This document shows positions 14,828 through 34,712 of a stretch of DNA of 38,486 bases, in pieces. Origin of the DNA: Bacteroidales bacterium. Lineage in GTDB: Bacteria; Bacteroidota; Bacteroidia; Bacteroidales; UBA7960. The translations under genes and the position numbers were made by a program. The notes beneath the pieces were generated by a model that was given only the letters and a program-made list of their open reading frames with translations, made no database searches and was not told the DNA's origin. The stretch is from NCBI GenBank assembly GCA_007120085.1, contig SKOK01000135.1, positions 1-38,486 on the forward strand, written 5' to 3'. The first letter of the stretch is position 1; every line of letters begins with the position of its first letter.

Positions 14828-14989
14828 ATGAGTGATTCCAACAAGACCCGAGAAGAACTTTTACAGCAAATAAAAGAGTTGCGTGAAGTAAACAAGCTGC
14901 TGAAGGACAATCAGATTAAGCTTGAAAAAGCATTGCAGCTGGCCAGGGATATTACTGCTGCAAAAATTGCTGAACAAAACCTCATTTAA
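14828..14989 (+). CDS. 53-aa coiled-coil small ORF
   Basis: MSDSNKTREELLQQIKELREVNKLLKDNQIKLEKALQLARDITAAKIAEQNLI*; 17 nt after the hybrid kinase and 3 nt before cheW. Below the ORF-track cutoff. Confidence 0.6.
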   Translation: MSDSNKTREELLQQIKELREVNKLLKDNQIKLEKALQLARDITAAKIAEQNLI

Positions 14990-14992
14990 GGG

Positions 14993-15505
14993 ATGAAAAC
15001 ATCCGGAGAAACATATCTTACCTTCTCAATTGACGAGAAACCATTTGCCATACCGCTGCAACACATCAAGAGGGTGGTCAGGGCAGTTTCTGCTACTACT
15101 GTACCCGAAAGCAGCAAGAAATTACACGGGGTAATAAATTTCGAGGGTACGATTGTACCGTTGATCAACCTGCGCGAGTGTTTAGGCTTGCCTTCAAAAG
15201 ATATTTCCGTAAATGACAGCTTCCTGATCCTGAATACACCGCAACGCTTACTTGCGGTTACGGTGGATGCCGTGAACAAGCTATATGATATCAGTGAAGA
15301 TGAGCTAAGCAACATTGAAATACCCGCCAGGAGAAACAATAACAAATCAAGCAGCACCATCACCTTAAAACATCATCGCGTTTACGGCGATGAGGAAGGC
15401 ATTATTGTGATATATGATATTGAAGGCTTGCTTAACGCAGAAATGACCCTGCAGATTGATCAGCTGCTGGATGACTTTTTAAAAACCAACAAGGGGGGCA
15501 GGTAA
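14993..15505 (+). CDS. CheW-like scaffold protein (WspB-like position)
   Basis: YLTFSIDEKPFAIPLQHIKRVVRA...GVINFEGTIVPLINLRECLGLP...LLAVTVDAVNKLYDI. Confidence 0.92.
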   Translation: MKTSGETYLTFSIDEKPFAIPLQHIKRVVRAVSATTVPESSKKLHGVINFEGTIVPLINLRECLGLPSKDISVNDSFLILNTPQRLLAVTVDAVNKLYDISEDELSNIEIPARRNNNKSSSTITLKHHRVYGDEEGIIVIYDIEGLLNAEMTLQIDQLLDDFLKTNKGGR

Positions 15506-15511
15506 ATTATC

Positions 15512-16945
15512 ATGGAGAAGCACACATACATGGCTCGCATTAACCGGCGCATCAATGAGCTGCTGGGGCTGCACTTCTCCGAAAACCAATGGGAAGGCCT
15601 GGAACGCAGGTTGCAAAAAGCCGCAGCGGCCATGCACATAAAAAAAACGCTGGATCAGCTGGACCAATGGATTGCCCAACCCCACATTCCGCAACATCAG
15701 CTGGAAGTCTTAATCGAGCACCTAACTATTTGTGAAACATATTTTTTCAGGGAAAAGCAGGCACTAACCCTGCTTACTGAAAGCATCATTCCATTAATCA
15801 AGCCATCCACATACAATGGCAAGAAGCAGCTGCGCATTTGGTGTGCCGCCTGCAGCACAGGGGAAGAGCCCTACTCCATTGCAATGACCCTCAGGGATTC
15901 ACTGCCAATCCCGGATGAATGGGAAATTACACTGCTGGGCACTGACCTTAATGTCCAGGCCCTCGAAAAGGCCCGGGTGGGCAGCTACTCTCCATGGTCA
16001 TTCAGGGATACACCTGAGGCTATTAAGCAGAAATACTTTATTAAAAGTGATAAGAAACTGCTGATCAAGCCTGACATCAAAAAGATGGTGCAATTCAGGC
16101 AGCACAACCTGGCCACGGAAGCTTTTCCCGCCCCCGGCAATGGCAGCAAACAATGGGATGTGATCTTATGCCGCAATGCGCTGATGTACTTTTCTCCTGA
16201 CGTCATTAAACGCATCACCAAAAAATTTCATGAGGTTTTGAAGCCAGATGCCTGGTTCATCACCAGCCAGGTGGAATTAAACGACGATTATTTTGGCATT
16301 TTCAAAAGGGTATTGTTCCAAAATGCCATATTCTACAGGAAAAGCCCAAAAGAGCCTCCAATTCAACAAGTGCAAGTTCACATAGCGAAAAAAACACAGC
16401 AATCATCCTTAAGTCTGCTTAAGCCAAAGCAGATTAACAAGGCAACCAAAGCAGGTCTGCGAAACAGATCAAAAGCATCATCGCAGGTTCGCGTCAAAAA
16501 GCAGGAGCATTCGCTCATCAGCAAGAAGGGCAGCGAACTAACTGCCAGTCATGATGCGGTGCTGTTTGAGCAAGTCAAGGCGCTGGCCGATGCAGGCAGG
16601 CTCGATGAAGCTGCAGAAGCCATGTCAGGCTTGCTGAAAAACGGTAGCGGGCAAGCAGAACATTATTATGTGTATGCCACAGTGTTGATGGAAATGGAAA
16701 GACTCGGGGAAGCAGATCAAAACCTGGTTAAAGCACTTTACCTGGAACCCGGGCACCTTGCAGCCAGGTTAAACAGGAGCCAGCTGCTGAGAAAAACCGG
16801 AAAGCATGAACAGGCATACAAAGAAATGCAAAACCTGCTGGACGACATCAGTACCTTTGACGATCATGCCCCCCTGCCCCACCTCGATGGCCTCACCGCC
16901 GGCAGGGTGAGGCAAATGGCAGGGTTGTTCAGTGTAACGACCTGA
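15512..16945 (+). CDS. CheR-type methyltransferase with C-terminal TPR-like region (WspC-like)
   Basis: YFFREKQALTLL, LRIWCAACSTGEEPYSIAMTLRD, LGTDLNVQALEKARVGSYS, WDVILCRNALMYFSPDVIKRI; C-terminal helical repeats DAGRLDEAAEAMSGLLKNG...ALYLEPGHLAARLNRSQLLRKTGKHEQA. Confidence 0.95.
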   Translation: MEKHTYMARINRRINELLGLHFSENQWEGLERRLQKAAAAMHIKKTLDQLDQWIAQPHIPQHQLEVLIEHLTICETYFFREKQALTLLTESIIPLIKPSTYNGKKQLRIWCAACSTGEEPYSIAMTLRDSLPIPDEWEITLLGTDLNVQALEKARVGSYSPWSFRDTPEAIKQKYFIKSDKKLLIKPDIKKMVQFRQHNLATEAFPAPGNGSKQWDVILCRNALMYFSPDVIKRITKKFHEVLKPDAWFITSQVELNDDYFGIFKRVLFQNAIFYRKSPKEPPIQQVQVHIAKKTQQSSLSLLKPKQINKATKAGLRNRSKASSQVRVKKQEHSLISKKGSELTASHDAVLFEQVKALADAGRLDEAAEAMSGLLKNGSGQAEHYYVYATVLMEMERLGEADQNLVKALYLEPGHLAARLNRSQLLRKTGKHEQAYKEMQNLLDDISTFDDHAPLPHLDGLTAGRVRQMAGLFSVTT

Positions 16946-17008
16946 TCAGGCAGCATACGCAGCAAGATCTTAACACGGGCATTCAAAAACCTGTAAAAAC
17001 TTATCAGA

Positions 17009-17521
17009 ATGAGCTCAGATGATCAAATACTGAAAGAGCGGGCAAGGCAATTGGCCAAAAAGCGGGAAAACGGTAACAATGATACCGGGAAAACCCTTGT
17101 GGTTGAATTTTTGCTATTCCCCGAAAAATATGCCATTGCAGCAAGCTTTATTGAAGAAGTGCTTACCTTGCAGGAAATCACGCCGCTTCCGGGCACAGCA
17201 GAACATCTGATGGGGGTGGTCAATTTCAGGGGCAAGATTGTTCCAATCATAAACCTTAAAAATCTCTTCATGCTAAAAGAGCAAGGGCTCACCGAAATGG
17301 ATAAAGTAATATTGCTGCGCCAGGGTCAAGTGGTTTTTGGCCTGCTGGCTGATAGCATCACGGGTTCGCAAAGCATTGACATGGATCAACTGGCAGAGCC
17401 CCCGCTCAACTTGAGCAAGATTGGCAATGAATTCATCACAGGACTGATGCCTGATGGCACCATTGTGCTGGATGCAGCAAAAGTTTTTGCCAGCAATTCA
17501 TTAATCAAAACAGCAAAATAA
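17009..17521 (+). CDS. CheW-like scaffold protein with charged N-terminal extension (WspD-like position)
   Basis: ILKERARQLAKK...VEFLLFPEKYAIAASFIEEVLTLQEITPLPGTAEHLMGVVNFRGKIVPIINLKNLF. Confidence 0.93.
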   Translation: MSSDDQILKERARQLAKKRENGNNDTGKTLVVEFLLFPEKYAIAASFIEEVLTLQEITPLPGTAEHLMGVVNFRGKIVPIINLKNLFMLKEQGLTEMDKVILLRQGQVVFGLLADSITGSQSIDMDQLAEPPLNLSKIGNEFITGLMPDGTIVLDAAKVFASNSLIKTAK

Positions 17522-17560
17522 TAGCACTTACCCATACACTAACTTTCAAAAAAAGGAACT

Positions 17561-19054
17561 ATGAACATACTACAAAACATCAGCTTTCGTGCAAGGTTGC
17601 TTATTGGTTTTTCTGTAATCCTAATCGGCATAACAGCCACCTGGATCATCGCAATGAACAGCCTGAATCTCATTGTGAAAGCAAAGGCTGAGCTGGACGT
17701 TGCCCAGGACACAGCCAGGGAACTGACAAGCCTTCGTTCAGACCAAAACAGGTTAAACACCCTGCTTTTGCTTGCCACCACCAGTGAAAGCAGCGATCAA
17801 AGACAACAATATCTTGATGAGCTTGCAGGGATATGGAACAGCATTGATCAAACTGTTTCGGGAATGGGCGTAGTCCTGCAAGAAAACACAGCTGTCTTAC
17901 CCACATTCAGGGAAGTGGCGGTATGGAAAGACAGATCGAGACAAAACCAAATGAGACAGATTGAGCATATTAACAATGATCAGCCTGAAGCCGCCATGGA
18001 AGTTTACAGGGAAGTGGTGCAGGTTGGCTGGGAAACACTTCGAAACCATATCAATACGCTTGAAGACCAACTCGAAAAACAGGGTGATGTGCTGCTTGCA
18101 CAATCCGATGCACGCGTAAACAGAAGCAATTTCTCACTCACCACCATTGGAATTGTTGTCATTCTTATCACATTACTGATTGTTTTAGGAACTATGCGAA
18201 TGATTACCCGCATCACCACAGACATCAAAGAGGGGATTACCGTTTTGGGAAGCAGTGCGTCGGAAATTCAATCAACCGTTAATGAAATATCAACTGGTGC
18301 TGCCGAAACGGCATCTTCCATATCAGAGACCTCCACCACTGTAGAAGAGATCAGGCAAACATCAATTGTAGCAGGTAAAAAAGCGAAAAGCCTGATGGAG
18401 AACTCCGAAAAAGCCTCAGAAATTGGAGAACGTGGCCTGGAAACATCGCAAAAGATGATTGATGCAATGGAGCAGATTGACAGGCAGATGAAAAACATTC
18501 ACAACACCATCACCAAATTATCGGAACAAAACCGTTCGATCGGTGAAATAACAACCACGGTTTCTGACATAGCCGACCAGTCGAACCTGCTGGCAGTGAA
18601 TGCAGCCATCGAGGCTGCCAAAGCCGGTGAACACGGGCGCGGCTTCTCAGTTGTTGCCCAGGAGATCAGGAGCCTCTCTGAGCAATCCAAAAAATCAACA
18701 GCACAAGTTAAAGATATTTTGAATGAGATTCAAAAGTCAGTAATTCAGGCCGTTGAGGTGATCAACCAGGGCACAAAAACTGTCGAAGAAGGCAACAAAA
18801 CGGTCGCAGAGGACAGGGAAGTGGTTGAAACGCTTATAGAAAGCGTAAATGAAGCAACTGAAGCCGCAGTGCAAATATCATCAACCAGCCACCAGCAAAT
18901 GGCAGGCATGGACCAGATCGTGCCAGCCATGGAAAACATCAAGCAGGCAAGTGAACAAAATGTATCAGGCATAAGGCAAACCGAAGAAGCGGTGAAAAGT
19001 CTTTATGAGCTGGGTGAAAACCTGAAAAGCGTTATCACAAAATACAAACTCTAG
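17561..19054 (+). CDS. Methyl-accepting chemotaxis protein (WspA-like position)
   Basis: Two TM segments around a helical 4HB-like region; hairpin tip TTTVSDIADQSNLLAVNAAIEAAKAGEHGRGFSVVAQEIRSLSEQSKKST. Confidence 0.96.
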   Translation: MNILQNISFRARLLIGFSVILIGITATWIIAMNSLNLIVKAKAELDVAQDTARELTSLRSDQNRLNTLLLLATTSESSDQRQQYLDELAGIWNSIDQTVSGMGVVLQENTAVLPTFREVAVWKDRSRQNQMRQIEHINNDQPEAAMEVYREVVQVGWETLRNHINTLEDQLEKQGDVLLAQSDARVNRSNFSLTTIGIVVILITLLIVLGTMRMITRITTDIKEGITVLGSSASEIQSTVNEISTGAAETASSISETSTTVEEIRQTSIVAGKKAKSLMENSEKASEIGERGLETSQKMIDAMEQIDRQMKNIHNTITKLSEQNRSIGEITTTVSDIADQSNLLAVNAAIEAAKAGEHGRGFSVVAQEIRSLSEQSKKSTAQVKDILNEIQKSVIQAVEVINQGTKTVEEGNKTVAEDREVVETLIESVNEATEAAVQISSTSHQQMAGMDQIVPAMENIKQASEQNVSGIRQTEEAVKSLYELGENLKSVITKYKL

Positions 19055-19060
19055 TGCAGG

Positions 19061-21394
19061 ATGGGTAAAGATAAAGAGGCATTTTTAAAGGAGCTGCTTA
19101 ACGATTTCAAGATCGAAGCATCCGAGCACCTTCAGTCTATCTCAAACGGACTGCTGAAGCTTGAGAAGAACTTCCAAACTCCTGAAAGCAAGGAGGTTGT
19201 TGAAAATGTTTTTCGCGAGATTCATAGCATTAAGGGTGCCGCACGTGCCGTTAACCAGCTGCAAATTGAACGCCTGTGCATGAGCATGGAAAGCGTTTTT
19301 TACCAGGTCAGGAAAGGCAGCATCAGTCTTGCACCCCCCATGTTTGATGTGTTTTTGCAATTTTCCGACCTGCTGGATAAGATGCTGAAAGAAATTGACA
19401 ACACAACAAAGAGTGTCTCAGAAAACAACATACGAAAACTTTCAGTAAAAATCTCATCGCTTTCACAAACCAAGGCTCTGGCACCAAAGAAAGTTATGGT
19501 TCCAGGATTATCTGAAAACCCCAGATCCGAAACAAGTAACCAGGCTGCCATGCCATCGCCGATTGCCCAAACTGATGATACGGGCGCATTACAGGATACA
19601 GACACCCACAAAGACGCACAGCCCGGTGACATGCATGCGCTGACAGCAGAAAGCCCAAAGCAGGAAACTATTAGAGTGGCATCATCAAAGCTGTCTGAGA
19701 TTCTCAACAGGGCAGAAGAGCTGATCACCATCAAAAGCCGTCTGCAGCACCAGGCGAGGCAATTGCAAGCGCTTGCCGGACAAATGTCCTATTGTCAGAA
19801 AAAATTCGAAGAAAGAGTGGCTTACGGCAGCGGCGACCTTAACAAAGCTGACCCGGCCGAAACGCACAGAGAACTGGAGCAGCTCAAAAAGAACAAAAAC
19901 GAACTGACTGCACTGGTAGGCAGCATGGATAATTTACAAAGCACTGCCGGACGGTCAGTCGATGAGCTGATCCTCAGCATCAGGAAAAGCATGATGCAGC
20001 CTTTTTCTTCCCTGTTCATGATTGTGCCACGCATCGTCAGGGATCTCTCAAAAGAATTTGGCAAGGAGGTTCATCTCGACCTTAAGGGTGCTGATATTGA
20101 GATAGACCGGAGGATACTGGAGGAGATGAAAAACCCGCTGATACACCTTATCAGGAACTGCATTGACCACGGCATGGAGAGCCGCGATGAAAGAAAAAGA
20201 AAAAACAAAAGCGTAACCGGCGTTCTCCGCATTGCCGCAGGCATCGAATCGGGACAAAAAATCCATATCGAGATCAGCGACGATGGCAGAGGCATCGATC
20301 GGGAGAAGCTCATAAGTGCCGCCCTGAAATCGGGCAAGGTGACCATGGAAGAAATGCAGCACATGAATGAAAAAGAGATCAATATGCTCATTTTCAGGTC
20401 GGGTGTTTCTACCAGCCCATACATAACAGATGTATCAGGTCTGGGGCTCGGCATGGCCATCGTGGCCGAAAAAATTGCCGGGCTTGGCGGCAGCATCGAT
20501 GTTGAAAGTGAAAAGGACAAAGGAAGCACATTCAGCATCACACTGCCTCAAACGCTTGCCACATTCAGGGGCGTGCATGTAAAAGCATCCGGCAGCAGTT
20601 TTCTGATCCCTACCTCTGCCATTGTAAAAGCATTGAAAATATTGCCAGCCGACATACGGAAGGTAGAATCCAGAAATGCAATAAAATTTGACAACGAAAC
20701 TATTGGCTTAGTCAGCCTGGCCGATGTGCTGGGCATTCGGAGAAGGCATACCGGAAAAATGAGCAAAGCCTTGCAGGGATTAATCTTACATCATGCGCTT
20801 AAGAAACTTGTGTTCATTGTTGAAGATGTGTTTGGGGAGCAGGAAGGCGTGGTAAAAGCCCTGGGCTTGCAGGCGGAGCATGTCAGGAACATTGCCGGTG
20901 CCATCCTGTCGGGCGATGGCACGGTTTTGCCAGTGCTGAATGTGGCTGAGCTGATGGAGTCAGCTGCAGGAAAAAGCTATTTCACAGTTGATGACAGTGA
21001 ACTCAGCCCTCAGAAAGATACAAACCAAAAACAAATCAAGGTGCTGGTGGCTGAAGATTCCATCACCGTTCGCAATATGTTGCGCAACTACCTGGACTCA
21101 GCAGGCTTTGTTGTTACCACGGCCGTTGACGGAATGGATGCTTATGAGCGGCTGCAAAACGACACCTTCGACATTGTTGTTTCCGATGTAGAGATGCCGC
21201 GAATGAACGGTTTTGAGCTTACAGAGAAGACCCGGGAGGATTCCCGGACCACAAGCCTGCCGGTGATCCTGGTCACGGCGCTCGAATCGGCCGACGACCG
21301 CAGGCGGGGCATGGAAGCCGGCGCCAACGCATACATCGTAAAAAGCAGTTTTGAAAAAGGAAACCTGATCGACACCATTAAACGCTTAACGTAA
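19061..21394 (+). CDS. CheA-type kinase with Hpt, HATPase, CheW-like and C-terminal REC domains (WspE-like)
   Basis: 777 aa; FREIHSIKGAARAV (Hpt), HLIRNCIDHGMESRDERKRKNK, GLGLGMAIVAEKIAGLGG, CheW-like region, REC KVLVAEDSITVRNMLRNYL...DIVVSDVEMPRMNGFELTEK. Confidence 0.96.
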   Translation: MGKDKEAFLKELLNDFKIEASEHLQSISNGLLKLEKNFQTPESKEVVENVFREIHSIKGAARAVNQLQIERLCMSMESVFYQVRKGSISLAPPMFDVFLQFSDLLDKMLKEIDNTTKSVSENNIRKLSVKISSLSQTKALAPKKVMVPGLSENPRSETSNQAAMPSPIAQTDDTGALQDTDTHKDAQPGDMHALTAESPKQETIRVASSKLSEILNRAEELITIKSRLQHQARQLQALAGQMSYCQKKFEERVAYGSGDLNKADPAETHRELEQLKKNKNELTALVGSMDNLQSTAGRSVDELILSIRKSMMQPFSSLFMIVPRIVRDLSKEFGKEVHLDLKGADIEIDRRILEEMKNPLIHLIRNCIDHGMESRDERKRKNKSVTGVLRIAAGIESGQKIHIEISDDGRGIDREKLISAALKSGKVTMEEMQHMNEKEINMLIFRSGVSTSPYITDVSGLGLGMAIVAEKIAGLGGSIDVESEKDKGSTFSITLPQTLATFRGVHVKASGSSFLIPTSAIVKALKILPADIRKVESRNAIKFDNETIGLVSLADVLGIRRRHTGKMSKALQGLILHHALKKLVFIVEDVFGEQEGVVKALGLQAEHVRNIAGAILSGDGTVLPVLNVAELMESAAGKSYFTVDDSELSPQKDTNQKQIKVLVAEDSITVRNMLRNYLDSAGFVVTTAVDGMDAYERLQNDTFDIVVSDVEMPRMNGFELTEKTREDSRTTSLPVILVTALESADDRRRGMEAGANAYIVKSSFEKGNLIDTIKRLT

Positions 21395-21399
21395 AATTC

Positions 21400-22476
21400 G
21401 TGAAAGAAAAGGTACATCAGAAAATTAAGGTTTTAATCGTTGACGACAGCCCTGTAAGCCAGAGGATCTATCGTCGTATCATCGCTGCCGACAGCCGGCT
21501 GGAGATTGTGGCAGTGGTATCAAACGGACGCGAAGCCGTTAATTACCTTTCAGAAAACAAACCGGATGTTGTCAGCATGGACCTGAACATGCCCCACATG
21601 GACGGGATAGAGGCCACAAGGCATATTATGCAACACAATCCTGTCCCCATTGTGGTTTCCAGCAGCCTTTACGACCCTGGCCAGCAGGAAATGGCCATGG
21701 AAGTACTGGAGGCCGGTGCTGCGGGCATCATGCCAAAACCACCAGGGCCGGGACATCCCGATCACGACCGCGCAGCGAAGCACTACCTGAGGCTGCTAAG
21801 GTCAATATCGGAAATAAAGGTGATCAGAAGGCGACCACATCTTAAAAATAATACATTGCACCCGGTTTCAGTAGCTGATGAAAAGAACATTCCTGGTGAC
21901 CTAAAACACAAAGACTACCGCGTATTGCTCATTGGGGCATCCGCCGGCGGACCAGAAGGCGTAAAGGCCATACTGGCAGGACTGAAACCCGGGTTTCCGC
22001 TTCCTGTGATGATTGTGCAGCATATCGACTGGCATTTTACGGAAGGGTACAGGCTCTGGCTGCAGTCATATACAAAAATCCCCGTGCTGGCTGCCGGCAA
22101 CAACCAGGCGCTGATGCCCGGACATGCCGTCCTTGCCGCAGGAAACAAGCACCTGGTTATAAAATCTGAAGGCATCGCAGGCTTCAGTGACGAGCCCGCT
22201 CACAGGGGACACAGGCCCTCAGTAAGGCATCTCTTCAAAAGCGCCGCCGAAATATACGGCAATAAAGCCATTGCCGTATTGCTCTCAGGAATGGGCACCG
22301 ACGGCGCAGAAGAACTCAAATTGCTTAAGGATGCCGGCGCCCTTACCTTTGCACAGAACAAGGAAACCTCCCTGGTCTTCGGCATGCCGGGTGAAGCCGT
22401 AAGGCTGGGCGCCGCCACAATGGTGATGTCGCCCGAAAATATCAGCAATTACATCAATGAAATATTCACCACATGA
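21400..22476 (+). CDS. CheB methylesterase (REC plus esterase; WspF-like position)
   Basis: GTG start; VLIVDDSPVSQRIYRR...VVSMDLNMPHMDGIEATRHI; catalytic motifs IGASAGGPEGV, IVQHIDWHF, LLSGMGTDGAEEL. Confidence 0.95.
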   Translation: MKEKVHQKIKVLIVDDSPVSQRIYRRIIAADSRLEIVAVVSNGREAVNYLSENKPDVVSMDLNMPHMDGIEATRHIMQHNPVPIVVSSSLYDPGQQEMAMEVLEAGAAGIMPKPPGPGHPDHDRAAKHYLRLLRSISEIKVIRRRPHLKNNTLHPVSVADEKNIPGDLKHKDYRVLLIGASAGGPEGVKAILAGLKPGFPLPVMIVQHIDWHFTEGYRLWLQSYTKIPVLAAGNNQALMPGHAVLAAGNKHLVIKSEGIAGFSDEPAHRGHRPSVRHLFKSAAEIYGNKAIAVLLSGMGTDGAEELKLLKDAGALTFAQNKETSLVFGMPGEAVRLGAATMVMSPENISNYINEIFTT

Positions 22477-22492
22477 AACCCAAAGTTTAATT

Positions 22493-23749
22493 ATGGATAA
22501 TGTATTAAATATCAGTTTTGACAAAGGATATGTGCTTGCTGTGGAAGACTCAAAAGTACAGGCAAAACGTATTCAGCATTTCTTTTATGAAAACAACATC
22601 CCTGCAAAAATTTGCAGCAATGGTGCCGAAGCCCTTGAAACGGCCATAATGGAAAAACCGCTGATCATCGTCAGCGATGTGGTGATGCCGGTAATGGATG
22701 GTTACGAGTTTTGCAGCAAGATCAAGGGCAACCCGGAGTTGGCTGACACACCCGTCATTCTGCTGACATCGCTGAGCGACCCCCTCGATATCATCAAAGG
22801 CCTGCAAGCCGGTGCAGATAACTTTATCACAAAACCATATGAAGATGAGTACCTGCTCACCCGAATGAAATACCTTATCGCCAACAGGCATTTCCGCCAG
22901 ATGGGATCTGGCGAAATGGCCATTGACATCGTATTTCAAAACCAGAAATTCAAGATCAACTCCGACAAAAAACAAATCCTCAGCCTGCTGCTGTCTGTAT
23001 ATGAAGCTGCCGTCAATCGCAATGAACAGCTCATAGAAGCACAACAGCAACTGGAAATAATGAATGAGAACCTGCAAGCGGCCAATAAAGAGCTTGAAGC
23101 TTTTTCGCACACCGTATCGCACGACCTGAAATCACCACTTAACGGCGTTATCGGATTTGCGGAACTGCTAAAGTCTGTTTATGGTGATGTACTTGACGAT
23201 GAAGCTAAATCCTACCTCAACAATATGATCAAGTCGGCCTATAACATGGCTCAGCTGATTGAAGACCTGCTGAACTTCTCCAAATCGGGCAGGGCGCAGA
23301 TCAATCCGGAAGTTTTTGATCTGAGTGAGATGGTTCATATTGTGGTTGATGAACTTAGAGAGATGACGTATAAGGGCCATTACGACATTCACATTGAGCG
23401 GGACATCATGATTAAAGCAGACCCCGGACTGGTGCGCGTTGCACTCAACAACCTGGTGAGCAACGCACTTAAATACAGTCGGAACAAAGAAAAGCCTGAA
23501 ATTCATTTCGGGACCATGGAAAAAGATGGTGAAAAAGTGTTATACTTGCGTGATAACGGGGTGGGTTTTGACATGAACAAAGCCGATGACCTGTTCAGGC
23601 CCTTTATACGTCTTCATTCAAACCGCGAATTCCAGGGCACGGGCGTTGGACTAAGCACAGTGAAACGAATCATTGAAAAACACGGCGGCGACATATGGTT
23701 TGAATCAGCACCCGGCGCAGGAACATGTTTTTATTTCACATTCGAATAG
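22493..23749 (+). CDS. REC-histidine kinase fusion
   Basis: Likely start MDNVLNISF (ORF opens at 22457). REC (LAVEDSKVQAKRIQ...IIVSDVVMPVMDGYEF), linker, FSHTVSHDLKSPLNGVIGFAELL, GTGVGLSTVKRIIEKHGG. Confidence 0.93.
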   Translation: MDNVLNISFDKGYVLAVEDSKVQAKRIQHFFYENNIPAKICSNGAEALETAIMEKPLIIVSDVVMPVMDGYEFCSKIKGNPELADTPVILLTSLSDPLDIIKGLQAGADNFITKPYEDEYLLTRMKYLIANRHFRQMGSGEMAIDIVFQNQKFKINSDKKQILSLLLSVYEAAVNRNEQLIEAQQQLEIMNENLQAANKELEAFSHTVSHDLKSPLNGVIGFAELLKSVYGDVLDDEAKSYLNNMIKSAYNMAQLIEDLLNFSKSGRAQINPEVFDLSEMVHIVVDELREMTYKGHYDIHIERDIMIKADPGLVRVALNNLVSNALKYSRNKEKPEIHFGTMEKDGEKVLYLRDNGVGFDMNKADDLFRPFIRLHSNREFQGTGVGLSTVKRIIEKHGGDIWFESAPGAGTCFYFTFE

Positions 23750-23812: not shown

Positions 23813-26575
<2,763 letters not shown>

Positions 26576-26585
26576 CCAAAACGAA

Positions 26586-27704
26586 ATGGAAGCGCCAAAA
26601 GCAACAAAACAAAAAGAGATGATCCTGGTTGTGGATGACCAAATGACCAACCTGAAAATCTTATCGAGCATTTTAAGCAAGGAATATTCGCTGGGCATAG
26701 CCAACAGCGGCGAAAATGCAATGAAGTACCTGGAAAACAACACCCCCGATCTCATATTGCTTGATATCATGATGCCGGAAATGGACGGATACGAGGTGTG
26801 TCAGAAGATCAAACAGGATGAGGCCTGCCAGGATATTCCCGTTATCTTCCTGACAGCCAAAACTGATATTGATGATGTGGTCAAAGGCTTCGAATACGGC
26901 GCAGTTGACTACATTACCAAGCCGTTCAACATCTCCGAACTGAAAGTCAGGGTTAGAAACCATCTCAATCTGCAGGCTGCCCGCAACGAACTAAAAAAGG
27001 CGAACGCACAGCTAACAAAAATCAACCAGGAGAAAGACAGGTTTTTCTCCATCATCGCGCACGACCTCCGAAGCCCCTTATCCGGTTTTGCAGGGTTGAG
27101 CGAGTTGCTCGTAGAGCAGATCAGGGCAAACAATCTCGATATGATTGAAAAATATGCAAGTGCGATGCAGCAATCTTCAAAGATCACCATGGAGTTGCTT
27201 ATGAACCTCATGACATGGTCGCGCGCACAAACCGGAACCCTCGAATATCAGCCGGAAAGGCTATCAATACAAGGGATTGTCAAAGAGAATGTTGCATTAT
27301 TACGACATGCCGCCGATGAGAAATCCATCACAATTGAAACCCAAAGAATTGATGATGAAGAATTTAGTGCTGATAAGGAAATGGTAGGTGTGATATTGCG
27401 AAACATCCTTTCAAATGCAATCAAATTCACCAATACTGGCGGTTCTGTTAAGATCAGTGCTGAAATAAATGCACAGGAAGTAAATTTCTGTGTTGTTGAT
27501 GATGGCATCGGGATGAATAAAGAAATGCTGGATTCGCTTTTCAGGATCGACACCAAGATTCGCCGCATTGGAACCAACAAGGAACCCAGCACAGGCCTGG
27601 GCCTGCTGCTTTGCAAAGAATTTGTCGATATGCACGGTGGTCAGATCAGTGTCGAAAGCGAAGAAGGTAAGGGGACAAAGATTACCGTAATTATCCCAGT
27701 TTAG
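26586..27704 (+). CDS. REC-histidine kinase fusion
   Basis: Start MEAPKATKQ (ORF opens 26517). REC ILVVDDQMTNLKILSSIL...DLILLDIMMPEMDGYEV; HisKA FFSIIAHDLRSPLSGF; STGLGLLLCKEFVDMHGG. Kinase half resembles the HK at 10804. Confidence 0.94.
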   Translation: MEAPKATKQKEMILVVDDQMTNLKILSSILSKEYSLGIANSGENAMKYLENNTPDLILLDIMMPEMDGYEVCQKIKQDEACQDIPVIFLTAKTDIDDVVKGFEYGAVDYITKPFNISELKVRVRNHLNLQAARNELKKANAQLTKINQEKDRFFSIIAHDLRSPLSGFAGLSELLVEQIRANNLDMIEKYASAMQQSSKITMELLMNLMTWSRAQTGTLEYQPERLSIQGIVKENVALLRHAADEKSITIETQRIDDEEFSADKEMVGVILRNILSNAIKFTNTGGSVKISAEINAQEVNFCVVDDGIGMNKEMLDSLFRIDTKIRRIGTNKEPSTGLGLLLCKEFVDMHGGQISVESEEGKGTKITVIIPV

Positions 27705-27823
27705 CAAGAATGACCTACCCTGCCATTTAGCGCGGAAAGACTTGCGTGTTATAGTGTTGATAAAGCATTCACAGATCATAAAGCAACCAAAATAAATCTT
27801 TGTAATTCCAGAATAAACGTTTT

Positions 27824-29212
27824 ATGCGTTTTAGAATATTCATAGTAGAAGATGATCCCTGGTACGGGCAGTTTATGACGTACCAGCTATCCTCAAACCC
27901 CGACCACGACGTGGTTCTGTACAGCTGTGCAAAAGACATCCTGGATAATCTGCACAAGCAGCCCGACCTGGTGTACATGGATTTTGGCCTTCCCGACATG
28001 GATGGGGATAAACTCCTGAAAGAGATGCTCAAGAGAGTGCCGGACTTGCCTGTGGTCATCGTAAGCGGGCAGGAAGACATTTCCGTGGCTGTTAACCTGC
28101 TGAAGGCCGGGGCCAGGGACTACATCGTTAAGAATGATCACACGAGGGACCTTTTATGGCGTTCTGCCAATAATGTGAAGGAGAATTATTCGCTACGGCG
28201 GGAAGTAGCAGACCTGAAGGAACAGCTCGAGGAAAGATTTTCCCTTGACAAAAGCATCATTGGCCGGAGTGATGCCATACAACAATCGCAAATGCTTGCA
28301 AAAAAGGCCATTCATTCAGACATCAACGTCTCCCTGTTTGGCGAAACAGGAACAGGCAAAGAGGTGTTTGCCCGAGCCATCCATTTCAACAGCAAAAGAC
28401 GAAAGCATCCCTTCATCGCCGTTAACATGACAGCCATCCCCAAAGACTTGGTTGAAAGCGAGCTGTTTGGGCATGAAAAAGGAGCCTTTACGGGTGCCAT
28501 CGTCCAGAAAAAAGGGCGGTTTGAAGATGCAAACAAAGGAACAATATTCCTGGATGAGATTGGTGAGATGGACATGCAACTACAGAACAAACTGCTCAGG
28601 GTGCTCCAGGAACGCCAGCTGGTCCGGGTGGGGGGAAATAAGACCATTTCGATTGACATCCGCCTGATCACAGCCACCCAGAAAGACCTCGCAGAAGAGG
28701 TCAAGGCAGGCAATTTCAGGGAAGACCTCTACTTCAGGATCATGGGACTGCCCATAGAGTTACCGCCATTAAGAAAGCGGCAACAAGACATTCTGCTGCT
28801 TGCAGATCACTTCATAAAAGAATATGCCAAACAACACAAAACCGCGCCACCCGCCTTCACTAATGACGCTAAGGAGAAGCTTCACAATCACACATATCCC
28901 GGCAATGTAAGGGAACTCAAAGCCGTCATCGATCTGGCGTGCGTCATGTGCAACGGCGATGCCATCACAGCCGACGACATAAGCTTTTACCAGCTTGGAG
29001 TGGAAGACACCTACACCTATTCCGAAAAAACACTCAAAGAGTACAACAACGAAATCATATCACATTACCTGAAAAAATACGACAACGACGTTATGACGGT
29101 TGCCAGCAAGCTGGCTGTCAGCAAATCAAAAATTTATGATCTGATAAAATCAGGGCAGATAAAAACCACGTCATTCCGACCGGCAGGAAGGAACCAAAAC
29201 CTGCAACCATGA
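27824..29212 (+). CDS. Sigma54-dependent NtrC-type response regulator (REC-AAA+-HTH)
   Basis: REC (YMDFGLPDMDGDKL), Walker A GETGTGKEVFARAI, ELFGHEKGAFTGAI (GAFTGA), TIFLDEIGEMDMQLQNKLLRVLQE, C-terminal HTH VASKLAVSKSKIYDLIKSG. Confidence 0.96.
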   Translation: MRFRIFIVEDDPWYGQFMTYQLSSNPDHDVVLYSCAKDILDNLHKQPDLVYMDFGLPDMDGDKLLKEMLKRVPDLPVVIVSGQEDISVAVNLLKAGARDYIVKNDHTRDLLWRSANNVKENYSLRREVADLKEQLEERFSLDKSIIGRSDAIQQSQMLAKKAIHSDINVSLFGETGTGKEVFARAIHFNSKRRKHPFIAVNMTAIPKDLVESELFGHEKGAFTGAIVQKKGRFEDANKGTIFLDEIGEMDMQLQNKLLRVLQERQLVRVGGNKTISIDIRLITATQKDLAEEVKAGNFREDLYFRIMGLPIELPPLRKRQQDILLLADHFIKEYAKQHKTAPPAFTNDAKEKLHNHTYPGNVRELKAVIDLACVMCNGDAITADDISFYQLGVEDTYTYSEKTLKEYNNEIISHYLKKYDNDVMTVASKLAVSKSKIYDLIKSGQIKTTSFRPAGRNQNLQP

Positions 29213-30324
29213 ATCCAACCTACGCAATAAACATTCACGAACTGGAGGATCAACTGTCCCTGATGGCTGCTGATGAAGATGTTCAATCGGTTTTACTGAT
29301 GGGTGCCGATGAGGGCCACCCGGCAAAGGAAGAACTGGATCCTCTGTTGGCAGCTTTCCCAAAACCACTTATTGGTGGCATATTTCCGGAGATAATCACT
29401 GATAACAAACGCACAAAAACCGGATTCCTGCTTTTCCCCTTATCATTTGAACTAAAAACGACAGTGATTGAGCTAAGTTGCGATGATAGTGACTGTATTG
29501 ATCTTCTGAAAAACAAATTTGACGTAAATGAGATCAAACGGGCAAAAAGTCTTTTTGTCTTTGTTGATGCGTTTGGCCATAAGAAAAAGAGCTTTGTGCA
29601 TTCCCTCTTTAATTTTTTTGGAAACACGGTGAAATACCTTGGTGGAGGTGCTGGCTCGTTGTCATTTGAACCCTTTGAATGCATTTTGCATAACAGCGGG
29701 GCATATCAGAATGCGGCAGTGCTTGGATTATGTGAGCAACCGCTATCACTGGGCGTGGCACATGGGTGGACACCGATCGGCAAACCCCTGAAGGTAACAA
29801 AGGCAGAAGGCAACAGCATCATCAGCCTTGAGTGGAAGCCGGCTTTTGAGACCTATAAGGAACAGATTGAAAGGCATTCGGGCTTAAGCATCACGGAAGA
29901 AAATTTCTTTGACATTGCGAAATCATACCCGCTGGGAATGGTAAAACTTGACAGTGAGATGGTGATCAGGGATCCTTACCGTGCTGAAAGCGGGGTGCTG
30001 CATATTGTGGATGAGGTTCCGGAAGGCGAATATGTCCGGATCATGCATGGCAATATCGACTCCTTGCTGAACGGGGCCGGGGCCGCCCTTGATGAGGCAA
30101 AAACATACGCCAGGAGAATGGATCAACCTTCAATGCTGTGCATCGACTGCATCTCACGCGTACTCTACATGCAGGATGACTTTTCCAGGGAAATTAAGGT
30201 TGTCAGCGACCAGCAAGCAGTTAACGGTGCACTGAGCATAGGTGAGATTGCCAATGCCGGCGAAACATTCCTGGAGGTTTACAATAAAACAATCGTAATC
30301 GCATTATGGCAAACGAAAACTTAG
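29209..30324 (+). CDS. FIST domain sensory protein
   Basis: 371 aa; VQSVLLMGADEGHPAKEELDPLLAAFPKPLIGGIFPEII...AAVLGLCEQPLSLGVAHGWTPIGKPLKVTKAEGNSI...MLCIDCISRVLYMQ; ATGA overlap with the preceding regulator. Confidence 0.85.
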   Translation: MNPTYAINIHELEDQLSLMAADEDVQSVLLMGADEGHPAKEELDPLLAAFPKPLIGGIFPEIITDNKRTKTGFLLFPLSFELKTTVIELSCDDSDCIDLLKNKFDVNEIKRAKSLFVFVDAFGHKKKSFVHSLFNFFGNTVKYLGGGAGSLSFEPFECILHNSGAYQNAAVLGLCEQPLSLGVAHGWTPIGKPLKVTKAEGNSIISLEWKPAFETYKEQIERHSGLSITEENFFDIAKSYPLGMVKLDSEMVIRDPYRAESGVLHIVDEVPEGEYVRIMHGNIDSLLNGAGAALDEAKTYARRMDQPSMLCIDCISRVLYMQDDFSREIKVVSDQQAVNGALSIGEIANAGETFLEVYNKTIVIALWQTKT

Positions 30325-32630
30325 AAACCAGGGTGCTGCTGGAGATTGCCCTGCAGCAGCTTTATGAAGGCAGTGCCGGGAAAATTCTACAGCATACACT
30401 GCCAATTTACATGCGCAAGCTCAATTGCTTCATGGCCGGCGTTGTGGTCGCCGACAAAGAAGAGGTGGTGATACCGTATACCTTCTATGGTTCAGATAGC
30501 TGGCATGAACTCAAGCAGTTTTTTCTTGAACAGAATACTGACCAGGCTCGGCTTGTTGAATACCAAGCCGGGGGGAAATACTACTATGGCTATTCGATGC
30601 CGCACTATGGATGGTTAGTGTTGGGAAAAAATCAAGCTTTTGCTGTCGACATAAAGAACGAACTTGTGCGACTTGTTAGCCAGCTTGGCCGGTCGCTCTG
30701 CCAGGCGGAAGAAGAGGCACGCCTGAAACTACTGCAAAACCTGATCAATAATTCTTCTGATGCGGTGCAGGTAGCAAAAGAGTCGGGCCAGATTTACTAT
30801 ATAAACCATCTGGCTGAAGAGCGCCTGGGGATAAAACAGCAAGATGCCCACAAGTATCATATCCGGGATTATGAGTCCGTTTTCAAGGAAGAAGGAGCCT
30901 GGGAAAAGCATGTTAAAGAATTGAAGAGCAAAGGATTTCTAACATTAGAGGGCTTGAACATCAACCAGACCACCGGTCATAGATTTCCGGTTGAGGTCAC
31001 CGTAAAATACATTCAAATAGGCTCTGAAGGTTATGTTATTGCCAACTCACGCGACATCAGTGAGCGCAAAGCTACCGAAAAACAGCTGGCCGAAGCAAAA
31101 AGCGTCGCTGAAAGGGCATCCCAAGCCAAAGAGCTGTTCCTGGCAAACATGAGCCATGAGATCCGCACACCACTCAATGTGATCATTGGCATGATCAGAC
31201 AGCTGAGCCGGGAAACACTCAGCGGTGACCAGTTGTATTATGTAAATCAATCGGCTGCGGCAGCCACCCACCTCCTGGCAATACTCAACAACATACTGGA
31301 CATGACCAGTATTGAAGCCGGCGAGCTGGTGCTCGAAAACAAGGATTTCAGCATAAGCGCCATTGCACAAAATGCCCAAAGCATCCTTTCATCGCAGGCT
31401 AATGAAAAAAACATTGATTTTCAGCTGCATATTTCACCCCAGGTGAAAGAGGCGCTGTATGGAGATGATGTGCGCATCAGGCAAATCCTGATCAACCTGC
31501 TGGATAATGCCATCAAATTTACAGAAAAAGGTTTTGTAAGACTTTCCATATCAGTGTCTGAAACGACTGCAAACAAGCAGGTAGTGCGTTTCGACATTGA
31601 AGACAGTGGCATTGGCATGTCTGATGATTTTACATCAGACGTTTTTAAAACCTTTACCCAGGAACAAGCCACCGCCAACCGGCAGTTCGGTGGTGCAGGG
31701 CTTGGTTTAAACATTGCCCATGACCTGCTCCAGCTGATGGGCTCAGAACTAAAGTTAAAAAGCAAGAAAGGAACAGGTACACACATAAGCTTTGAATTGA
31801 AGCTGCCCGCCGGTGATCCAGAGAAGATATCCGGTAAAAGCATCAGCATCAATGCCAATGCCTTTGAAGGCTTTCGTGTGATGCTGGCCGAAGACAATGA
31901 CATGAACCGCTTCATTGCGCTGCACAGCCTTTCGCACGTGGGATGCATCGTGTCAGAAGCGACCAATGGCAAGGAAGCTGTTGAACTGGCCAGGAAAGAA
32001 GCTTTTGACCTCATCCTCATGGACATCCAGATGCCCGAAATGGATGGGCTGGAAGCAACCAGGATTATCCGCAATGAACTCAAAATTGACACACCCGTCA
32101 TTGCCCTCACGGCAAATGCCTTTAAACATGATATTGATAAATATTTAGCCAATGGCATCAACGACTACGTCATCAAACCTTACGACGAACAAGACTTTTA
32201 CCGTAAAATAAGTCATTATTTCAGCCTGGCAAAAATTGCTGAAGGGTCAGCAACAGAAAGCCCCGCAGGCAAGCAGGCCAGTCCGCCGCTTTACAATCTT
32301 GACAAACTCCGGGATTTGAGCAAGGGCAATGAAGGCTTTGTTCAGAAAATGCTGGGTATATTTGTTGCACTTGCACAGGATGGCATCAACAAACTGGAAG
32401 ATGCGCAGAAAAACAACGACAGGGAAGCAATGCGCAAAATGGCACATAAGATGAAACCCAGCATTGATCAACTGGATATCAAATCACTTTATGAAAAGGT
32501 GCGAATGCCGGAAAAGCCCGCATTTCGCGAGCTTTCCGGTGATGAAGTTAACGACTGGGTTAATGATGTTACCAAAACACTTATGAAAGTTTCCCGGCAG
32601 ATCAGTGAGCGGGAAATCAACACTGACTAA
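30306..32630 (+). CDS. Hybrid histidine kinase: N-terminal sensor-like region, PAS, HisKA, HATPase, REC, Hpt
   Basis: 774 aa; [57 protein letters not shown]...[20 protein letters not shown], Hpt-like [15 protein letters not shown]; start overlaps the FIST ORF by 19 nt. Confidence 0.95.
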
Positions 32631-32639
32631 TCCCCGTGA

Positions 32640-34712
32640 TCAGTTATTGTTGTTATTGTTGTTAGGCCGGTTGTATATCTTGTTTGGATTTCTGTAACCG
32701 GGCTTATCCTTGTACCAGTCCATAAAACTGAACCCGCTGCTTTGTGCCCATTGAGGAAAAACAAGGTGAGCCACTACAATGTCTTCCTTTTCCATCGGAT
32801 AATCAAACCTTTCAGGGAGATGCATACCCCATGGCAAATTCGTAGCCGATTTGTAGTACTTTCCAATGGAAGGATCTGTATCATCATCGCCAGTGCCAAA
32901 ATAAGCGGTATTGACCAGGTCTGTTGGGGGATACCCTGGCAGATGCACTTCCCGCCCACGGTCTTGGTTTACAATCAGAAACGGATTATAAGGTGGCATT
33001 CCAATCGCCTGGGCTGTTTGTGGCGGGTCTAAAATGATCCTCACGGTGATCGACTCAGGCTCAACATAGTCCATATAAGGCTGTGTGTTTACGAAACCCG
33101 AACCAATGCCATCAAAAAGATTATACGTGTTATCGAAAGGAATGATGACCGCCTTGCTCTGGCCACTTTCCGTGTTGTTGGCATTCAATGATATGATGTT
33201 CCCTGTGTGGTTCAACCCGATCACATCAGCAACCACCGATGGCGGTACATCCAGCTGGAAACCAAAGCCATTTTTAAATCCCGCTCCAATAGCTTCAATG
33301 GTATAGGTAGCACGTATCTCTGCTACCAGGTTATCCGCATTTGTTATTTGATTGATATTGTAAGACAACACCAGGTCATTGAAGTCATAATCGCCTTTTT
33401 CCGGCCACAGGTCTTCGAAAGCCAGGCCTCCTACCCTGTTGCGGCCTGGGAAATAATTGTCAAAAGCCAGGTTGGGATCATCCGGATAATCATCCATTAC
33501 ATCTGGAATGCCATCTCCGTCTGTATCAATCAGGTTGGGATCAACCAAGGGAATTGACATCTTGTCAATGGCTTCAACCGGGTTGGATGTGACATAAAAA
33601 AGCGCATCGTTGAAATCATGGTCACAGCCACCATGCTCCCTGTTTAAGTCCTCAAAACCAATAACATGCAATTGACGTACAGCATCATAAAGCAAAACAG
33701 TGTGTTGCCTGAGTTCTGGATCAGACTCAGGGTTGAATGCCGGGTTTGAAAAAAAATGTACACGGGTTGTATTCACACTCGACGCTGCAAAACCATTGGC
33801 AATCAATACCCAACCAATACCAGTTCCTTCCGGAAAAGTTCCAAGGTGCAGTTTGTCTCCTGAAAACAAGCCACCCCCGCTGTTCATGTATGAGAAATTT
33901 GGAAATGCTATGATGATCTCATCAATGTCCTCTCTTGATGCAGGAGGGTTATTTATATCATAAGTGTAAAACCCCAGGGAATTACGGTGAGCAGCACCTT
34001 CGTGCACGAATGTGATATAAACATCTGCTTCTTCAAGCAATTGTATTTCAGTTTGATTGCCTTCTGCCAGGTAATGCGGATTATGAATAGGAACCGAAGC
34101 CCTTTCCGGCAATGCTGCGTCCAGGTCACGCAACAATTCAAAGTCAACAATGTCGCCAGGCTCAACCAGGCACAGTGGCACACCCTGATGACCATATTCG
34201 CACAAGAAAGAATAACCATCAGGCAATTCCTTAAGAAAGAAATCATCATCATCTGCCGGTGCAGACTTCGCACCATTACCACCAATCGTAAGGTTTAGCT
34301 GACCATTGCTGAGATCAGCAATGGTAAGGGTGGGCAGACCAATATAGCGCGTTACGACAAAAAGCTCTTCAGCAGTAAATTCAATTGGAAACATGACATT
34401 AAACACACCTGATGAATTTGTCATTCCGGTAAGCAACAAATCCCCCGAATCTTCAAATTCATCATAATCACGGTATATCTCAATGCGCGCACTGGGAATT
34501 GAATTGCCGTAGTTATCCTGTGTTAGAATATTGATTAACAGGATCTCTGTTGTTTTCCAGTCAAAATCATCGGCAATGACCATGTCATCACTCGAGTTGA
34601 TCTCGTCAGGGATTTGATCTTCCTCTTCCAGGTCCTTTTGGCAGGAATTCATTGTGATGACAAAAGGCAGCATCATGGCTGCAATCAAAAGCAATTTTAA
34701 ATGTTTTTTCAT
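32640..34712 (-). CDS. Secreted lipoprotein with DUF4114-like, Ca-binding and LruC-like domains
   Basis: 690 aa; signal peptide/lipobox ...VITMNSCQKDLEEED; GFEDLNREHGGCDHDFNDALFYVTSNP; DTDGDGIPDVMDDYPDDPN; LAFEDLWPEKGDYDFNDLVLSYNINQ; C-terminal Asn7. Confidence 0.88.
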   Translation of the reverse strand: MKKHLKLLLIAAMMLPFVITMNSCQKDLEEEDQIPDEINSSDDMVIADDFDWKTTEILLINILTQDNYGNSIPSARIEIYRDYDEFEDSGDLLLTGMTNSSGVFNVMFPIEFTAEELFVVTRYIGLPTLTIADLSNGQLNLTIGGNGAKSAPADDDDFFLKELPDGYSFLCEYGHQGVPLCLVEPGDIVDFELLRDLDAALPERASVPIHNPHYLAEGNQTEIQLLEEADVYITFVHEGAAHRNSLGFYTYDINNPPASREDIDEIIIAFPNFSYMNSGGGLFSGDKLHLGTFPEGTGIGWVLIANGFAASSVNTTRVHFFSNPAFNPESDPELRQHTVLLYDAVRQLHVIGFEDLNREHGGCDHDFNDALFYVTSNPVEAIDKMSIPLVDPNLIDTDGDGIPDVMDDYPDDPNLAFDNYFPGRNRVGGLAFEDLWPEKGDYDFNDLVLSYNINQITNADNLVAEIRATYTIEAIGAGFKNGFGFQLDVPPSVVADVIGLNHTGNIISLNANNTESGQSKAVIIPFDNTYNLFDGIGSGFVNTQPYMDYVEPESITVRIILDPPQTAQAIGMPPYNPFLIVNQDRGREVHLPGYPPTDLVNTAYFGTGDDDTDPSIGKYYKSATNLPWGMHLPERFDYPMEKEDIVVAHLVFPQWAQSSGFSFMDWYKDKPGYRNPNKIYNRPNNNNNNN

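Follow-up and report, generated by a model that had tools for sequence, protein, structure and literature searches.

A candidate chemosensory array with a receiver-kinase output in Bacteroidales, related to Wsp but placed outside it

Introduction

What does a chemosensory array act upon in a bacterium whose genome has yielded neither flagellar nor GGDEF genes? The question is raised by contig SKOK01000135.1 of a Bacteroidales bacterium (assembly GCA_007120085.1; 2.56 Mb, 329 contigs, 88% complete), the whole of which (38,486 nucleotides) was analysed and is here called the window. Seven consecutive genes on its forward strand encode CheW, CheR with a TPR region, a second CheW, a methyl-accepting chemotaxis protein (MCP), CheA with a C-terminal receiver domain (REC), CheB and a REC-HisKA-HATPase protein. 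The original prediction took them for a Wsp-like system in which this last protein, a histidine kinase (HK), stands in for the diguanylate cyclase WspR, and proposed an output to another kinase rather than to a motor or c-di-GMP. The kinase output is borne out by our analysis; the placement in Wsp is not. A self-contained alternative-function array with a kinase output is highly probable as the best explanation overall, and the reading of the array at the level of the system is held a little more firmly still.

Results

A single array with a conserved kinase partner

The module is the only chemosensory system in sight in its own genome. Exactly three CheW-domain proteins were found there, the two CheWs of the module and its CheA, and the one MCP is also that of the module; two further CheB matches both lie inside open frames of about 1,000 residues. 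Across this genome (88% complete) there were no matches to GGDEF and none to the flagellar protein FHIPEP, so the flagellar genes that mark a flagellar (F) class were not found. Since the genome holds three CheW domains, one MCP and no GGDEF or FHIPEP match, a motor or c-di-GMP output for this sole array is unlikely, and both were rejected as candidates. Among the window open reading frames (ORFs) scanned with Pfam there is equally no GGDEF protein, stand-alone CheY, CheZ, CheD or flagellar gene, as the original prediction had it. With no flagellar or GGDEF gene found, the array must therefore act on some other output; its conserved partner is a kinase.

To collect relatives of the module, three CheAs were aligned and the alignment was scanned against contigs of GTDB; this returned 23 loci, some of them cut by contig ends. 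Every complete Bacteroidota locus among these has the order CheW-CheR-CheW-MCP-CheA-CheB-REC-HK, and the terminal kinase is in each case a close orthologue (47-67% identical in Bacteroidia); in Collimonas the identity is 40%. Among Bacteroidota relatives of the close lineage with a complete locus this order recurs without exception, far more than chance would give. The order reaches other classes of the phylum and the Proteobacteria, sometimes with extra MCPs or PAS domains, and the relatives carried on plasmids are distant (CheA approximately 28-30% identical). Most of the Bacteroidota relatives searched possess one MCP and no FHIPEP; GGDEF genes occur in two relatives. It is because the order is conserved, the array is the only one and no GGDEF or FHIPEP was found that the reading as an alternative-function array with a kinase output stands.

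Within the window's own family the module is patchy: a profile of the REC-to-kinase linker (described below) matches 4 of the 47 genomes. When 395 genomes of the class were drawn, the window's own genome alone scored as a full-length member. Other genomes of the family (loci L007-L015) encode a different CheA type of 700-720 aa that lacks REC; a stand-alone CheY-like gene often lies immediately 5' of it. In the Bacteroidales isolate M55B145 (L041:5145-13585) the module is broken into many short frames, which reflects either decay or sequencing errors.

Genes and catalytic residues

Pfam and the ORF coordinates confirm the seven genes and their spacing, with intergenic gaps of 5-63 nt (Table 1). 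All domain assignments in these genes lie above the Pfam cut-off except H-kinase_dim in CheA, which falls below it. The TPR region of CheR (residues 353-444) is matched by three TPR models, each below its curated cut-off. The REC-HK frame was listed from an ATG at 22457; the starts of its orthologues align with the ATG at 22493, which places the gene 16 nt after CheB. P2 is absent from CheA, P3 is weakly recognised, and NCBIfam offered no class assignment for this protein. H55 and D709 of CheA are invariant across 14 orthologues, and in the alignment of kinase orthologues so are D31, D74, T104 and K126 of REC and H222 of HisKA; judged by sequence, the catalytic residues of both proteins are intact.

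A short ORF at 14828-14989 (54 codons, 53 aa) lies between an upstream hybrid kinase and CheW-1. Its product is helical and looks like a coiled-coil linker, with no meaningful Pfam match and no family. A scan for promoters and terminators gave counts near the shuffled expectation.

Table 1 Features of the chemosensory module and of the genes that follow it in the window.
Feature	Coordinates	Strand	Basis
CheW-1, 170 aa	14993..15505	+	PF01584 7e-25
CheR methyltransferase with C-terminal TPR region, 477 aa	15512..16945	+	PF01739 1.5e-44
CheW-2, 170 aa	17009..17521	+	PF01584 1.9e-27
MCP, 497 aa	17561..19054	+	PF00015 7.6e-36
CheA-REC, 777 aa: Hpt (H55), weak P3, HATPase, CheW, C-terminal REC (D709)	19061..21394	+	Pfam
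CheB, REC and methylesterase, 358 aa	21400..22476	+	PF00072 and PF01339 4.8e-53
Output protein, REC - hairpin/S-helix linker - HisKA - HATPase (seventh gene of module)	22493..23749	+	Pfam
Coding stretch of REC-to-output linker: beta-hairpin (residues 156-167), then start of long helix	22868..23056	+	Profile
PAS-PAS-GAF-HK-REC hybrid kinase, REC-HK2, NtrC-type sigma-54 response regulator, FIST protein, HK-REC	23813..32630	+	Pfam

A receptor without HAMP

The MCP has a first transmembrane helix (TM1) at approximately residues 13-31, an ectodomain, a second (TM2) at approximately 191-209 and symmetric arms of about 20 heptads either side of a hairpin tip at E357. From TM2 to the tip, Bacteroidia receptors span 145-148 residues as against 191-194 in typical WspA-type receptors, a shortfall that equals one HAMP domain in length; the arm running on from the tip to the C-terminus measures approximately 140 residues in both. 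Pfam detected no HAMP in the MCP and the AlphaFold model has an uninterrupted helix through TM2. In the same model the ectodomain is a four-helix bundle with a TM-score of 0.88-0.90 to 4HB ligand-binding domains, matching those of Vc1313 and MCP2201.

A linker shared by different outputs

The least expected part of the system is the linker of approximately 60 residues between REC and HisKA, predicted to form a beta-hairpin (pLDDT around or below 50 in the model) and then a long signalling helix. A profile of 48 residues was made from eight Bacteroidia sequences and run on the 6,500 ORFs of all collected loci. It matched output-type proteins of these modules only, at E no higher than 7e-7, and left the WspR, WspH and REC-SpoIIE proteins examined unmatched. 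The effectors behind the linker, drawn from different phyla, are HK, PAS-HK and, in Burkholderiales, GAF-PAS-GGDEF-EAL. Among 20 whole genomes, 18 contain the linker once per module; the other two gave no match, probably because a contig ends within the module. The linker had no convincing match in Pfam or the PDB, and a non-exhaustive literature search found no published name for it.

These data could describe one non-Wsp chemosensory lineage, present in both Bacteroidota and Proteobacteria, that reaches its output by way of a dedicated REC-hairpin/S-helix cassette, behind which effectors (HK, PAS-HK, GAF-GGDEF-EAL) have been swapped; we regard the chances of this proposal as evenly balanced. 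Under it, Bacteroidales genomes with no detectable GGDEF have a kinase as the effector, and the array would therefore control a two-component pathway. The cassette would serve as a sequence marker for locating the outputs of this lineage and as a system in which to study how a single receiver signal can drive different output enzymes.

One locus (L156:6145-6852) has REC and linker only, 235 aa, in the output position and a separate REC-HK gene further downstream; the two are possibly a split form of the output protein.

Relation to Wsp

The component set of Wsp (two CheWs, CheR-TPR, hybrid CheA and CheB) is present in the window, as the original prediction stated and Pfam supports. For comparison, the genome that holds the Collimonas locus supplied a reference Wsp cluster (MCP first, REC-GGDEF last), and Burkholderiales supplied further Wsp loci, one of which (L171) is of WspH type with a REC-HK gene 5' of WspA. 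In Burkholderia, WspH is a REC-histidine kinase that replaces WspR downstream of the hybrid CheA (WspE), and it was published as limited to that genus (PMC8552884). The window might thus hold a genuine Wsp system of WspH type, given the shared component set, the same REC-HK architecture in WspH (PMC8552884) and the existence of a WspH-type locus in our own collection.

The trees, from short searches with SH-aLRT support only, point elsewhere. In a tree of 75 CheA sequences the Wsp clade comprises 14 rows (ten with WspR, one with WspH and three with REC-SpoIIE outputs) with support of 100. The window CheA lies outside it, in a separate group of 16 rows, also with support of 100, together with 15 Bacteroidota-type REC-HK modules; this group adjoins REC-PAS-HK and REC-GGDEF-EAL systems of the same gene order, and the flagellar- and type IV pilus (Tfp)-type CheAs of Collimonas fall outside the clade of the window. 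The REC tree splits in the same way, the RECs of WspR, WspH and REC-SpoIIE proteins clustering together and apart from that of the window. Gene order differs, with the MCP first in Wsp (wspA-B-C-D-E-F) and fourth in the window, and so do the receptor, which has no HAMP, and the linker, which none of the Wsp outputs examined carries. A WspH-type system is accordingly very improbable, and membership of Wsp is rejected on the CheA tree, the REC tree, gene order and linker; the description as Wsp with WspR exchanged for a kinase does not hold. Because both trees separate it, the module is, on sequence criteria, an alternative-function array related to Wsp and not within it, with a kinase output that is not the same as WspH.

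Three loci in the phylum of the window do belong to the Wsp clade. They end in REC-SpoIIE, a PP2C-type phosphatase (L165:5719-6948, L167:5094-6290, L168:5189-6409), and their CheAs are 41-46% identical to WspE. Wsp has been published as exclusive to beta- and gammaproteobacteria, which these loci call into question.

Neighbouring two-component genes

The array sits within a dense same-strand two-component island (10804-32630) with several histidine kinases, an NtrC-type sigma-54 regulator and a FIST protein. This raises the alternative that the REC-kinase heads a local pathway in which CheA feeds a phosphorelay to the NtrC-type regulator (27824), much as in Myxococcus xanthus Che3-CrdS-CrdA (precedent cited in PMC3868531). 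The long same-strand run of kinases plus NtrC-type regulator after the REC-kinase would suit such an arrangement. In relatives, however, even those of the same genus, the genes at 23813..32630 do not adjoin the module, and so they lie outside its conserved set; the NtrC gene has a closer partner in another REC-HK (26517). We therefore consider a local phosphorelay unlikely and a link between the REC-kinase and the neighbouring NtrC regulator equally doubtful. The REC-kinase may act on the NtrC-type regulator or hybrid kinase next to it; as a conserved downstream partner the pair was rejected, since the arrangement is not kept in relatives.

At 29209-32630 the FIST-domain protein overlaps the HK-REC gene, recalling NosP-NahK nitric-oxide sensing pairs; the NosP model scored 20.5 bits on this protein against a cut-off of 450. 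A DUF4842/DUF4114 protein follows the island on the opposite strand (32640-34712).

Discussion

We propose that the signalling unit would consist of a HAMP-less membrane receptor with a four-helix-bundle sensor, two CheWs and CheA-REC, with CheR-TPR and CheB, by homology, setting adaptation. CheA would autophosphorylate its Hpt histidine and then donate this phosphate to Asp74 in the receiver of the kinase encoded by the seventh gene, a transfer that is likely by analogy with CheA3 and CheS3 of Rhodospirillum centenum. The hairpin-helix linker would relay the state of REC along a coiled coil into HisKA and HATPase and so make the kinase more or less active on a response regulator, the sign being conjectural. 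Most relatives encode no response regulator beside the module, which suggests an unlinked final target, presumably a regulator usually encoded elsewhere. The system would thus be a minimal one-receptor chemosensory system in bacteria with no detected flagellar or GGDEF genes.

Several points weigh against this account. A genome that is 88% complete leaves space for overlooked GGDEF or flagellar genes, the REC of CheA itself could act as a competing sink, and phosphotransfer from CheA to the kinase REC is argued from sequence and precedent. The partnership of linker and array is not perfectly exclusive, because one genome (G056, contig C210; L178:4160-5437) encodes a further REC-linker-HK whose surroundings, approximately 12 kb of sequence, contain no che gene; it is the only orphan copy seen.

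The scarcity of stand-alone response regulators beside the module in relatives, together with the fact that CheA always ends in REC, would also fit a reverse flow, in which the REC-kinase phosphorylates the REC of CheA or CheB as feedback inside the array and no external regulator is involved. Since CheS3 of R. centenum is unable to phosphorylate the REC of CheA3 (PMC3868531), and related modules hold GGDEF-EAL enzymes, outward effectors, in the output position, such feedback is improbable.

A REC-kinase output for a chemosensory array is of an already known kind and not unprecedented. The general idea of the original prediction was available from the survey of CheR-TPR clusters (PMC3447774) and from WspH (PMC8552884). 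In the former, REC-HK proteins account for approximately 40% of the response regulators surveyed, and nothing fundamental separates the module of the window from the alternative-function (ACF)/CheR-TPR clusters with REC-HisKA-HATPase regulators. The module has the multidomain response regulator as output by which that survey characterises the ACF class (PMC3447774), and a CheR-TPR (CheR at 1.5e-44, TPR sub-threshold); it is probably one lineage within this class. WspH differs from the window in CheA clade, REC clade, linker, gene order and HAMP, its gene lying 5' of WspA and the kinase gene of the window seventh, after CheB.

The Che3 cluster of R. centenum resembles the module in having two CheWs, CheR, MCP, CheA-REC, CheB and a second REC-containing histidine kinase. 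There, phosphorylated CheA3 phosphorylates REC1 of CheS3, which then controls CheY3; CheS3, however, is built as REC-REC-PAS-HWE kinase, and a stand-alone CheY3 is encoded in the cluster (PMC3868531). M. xanthus Che3-CrdS-CrdA shares the principle of che signalling directed at a two-component pathway and not at a motor, although its CheA works as a phosphatase of the regulator CrdA, and CrdS, a membrane-bound protein, is not a REC-kinase (PMC3868531). The Comamonas Flm pathway was set aside as a precedent, being of the Tfp class with single-domain regulators (PMC6391922, PMC8880074). Against this background the newer points are the separate lineage, its HAMP-less receptor, the interchangeable outputs behind one linker and the phosphatase outputs of Wsp-clade systems outside the Proteobacteria.

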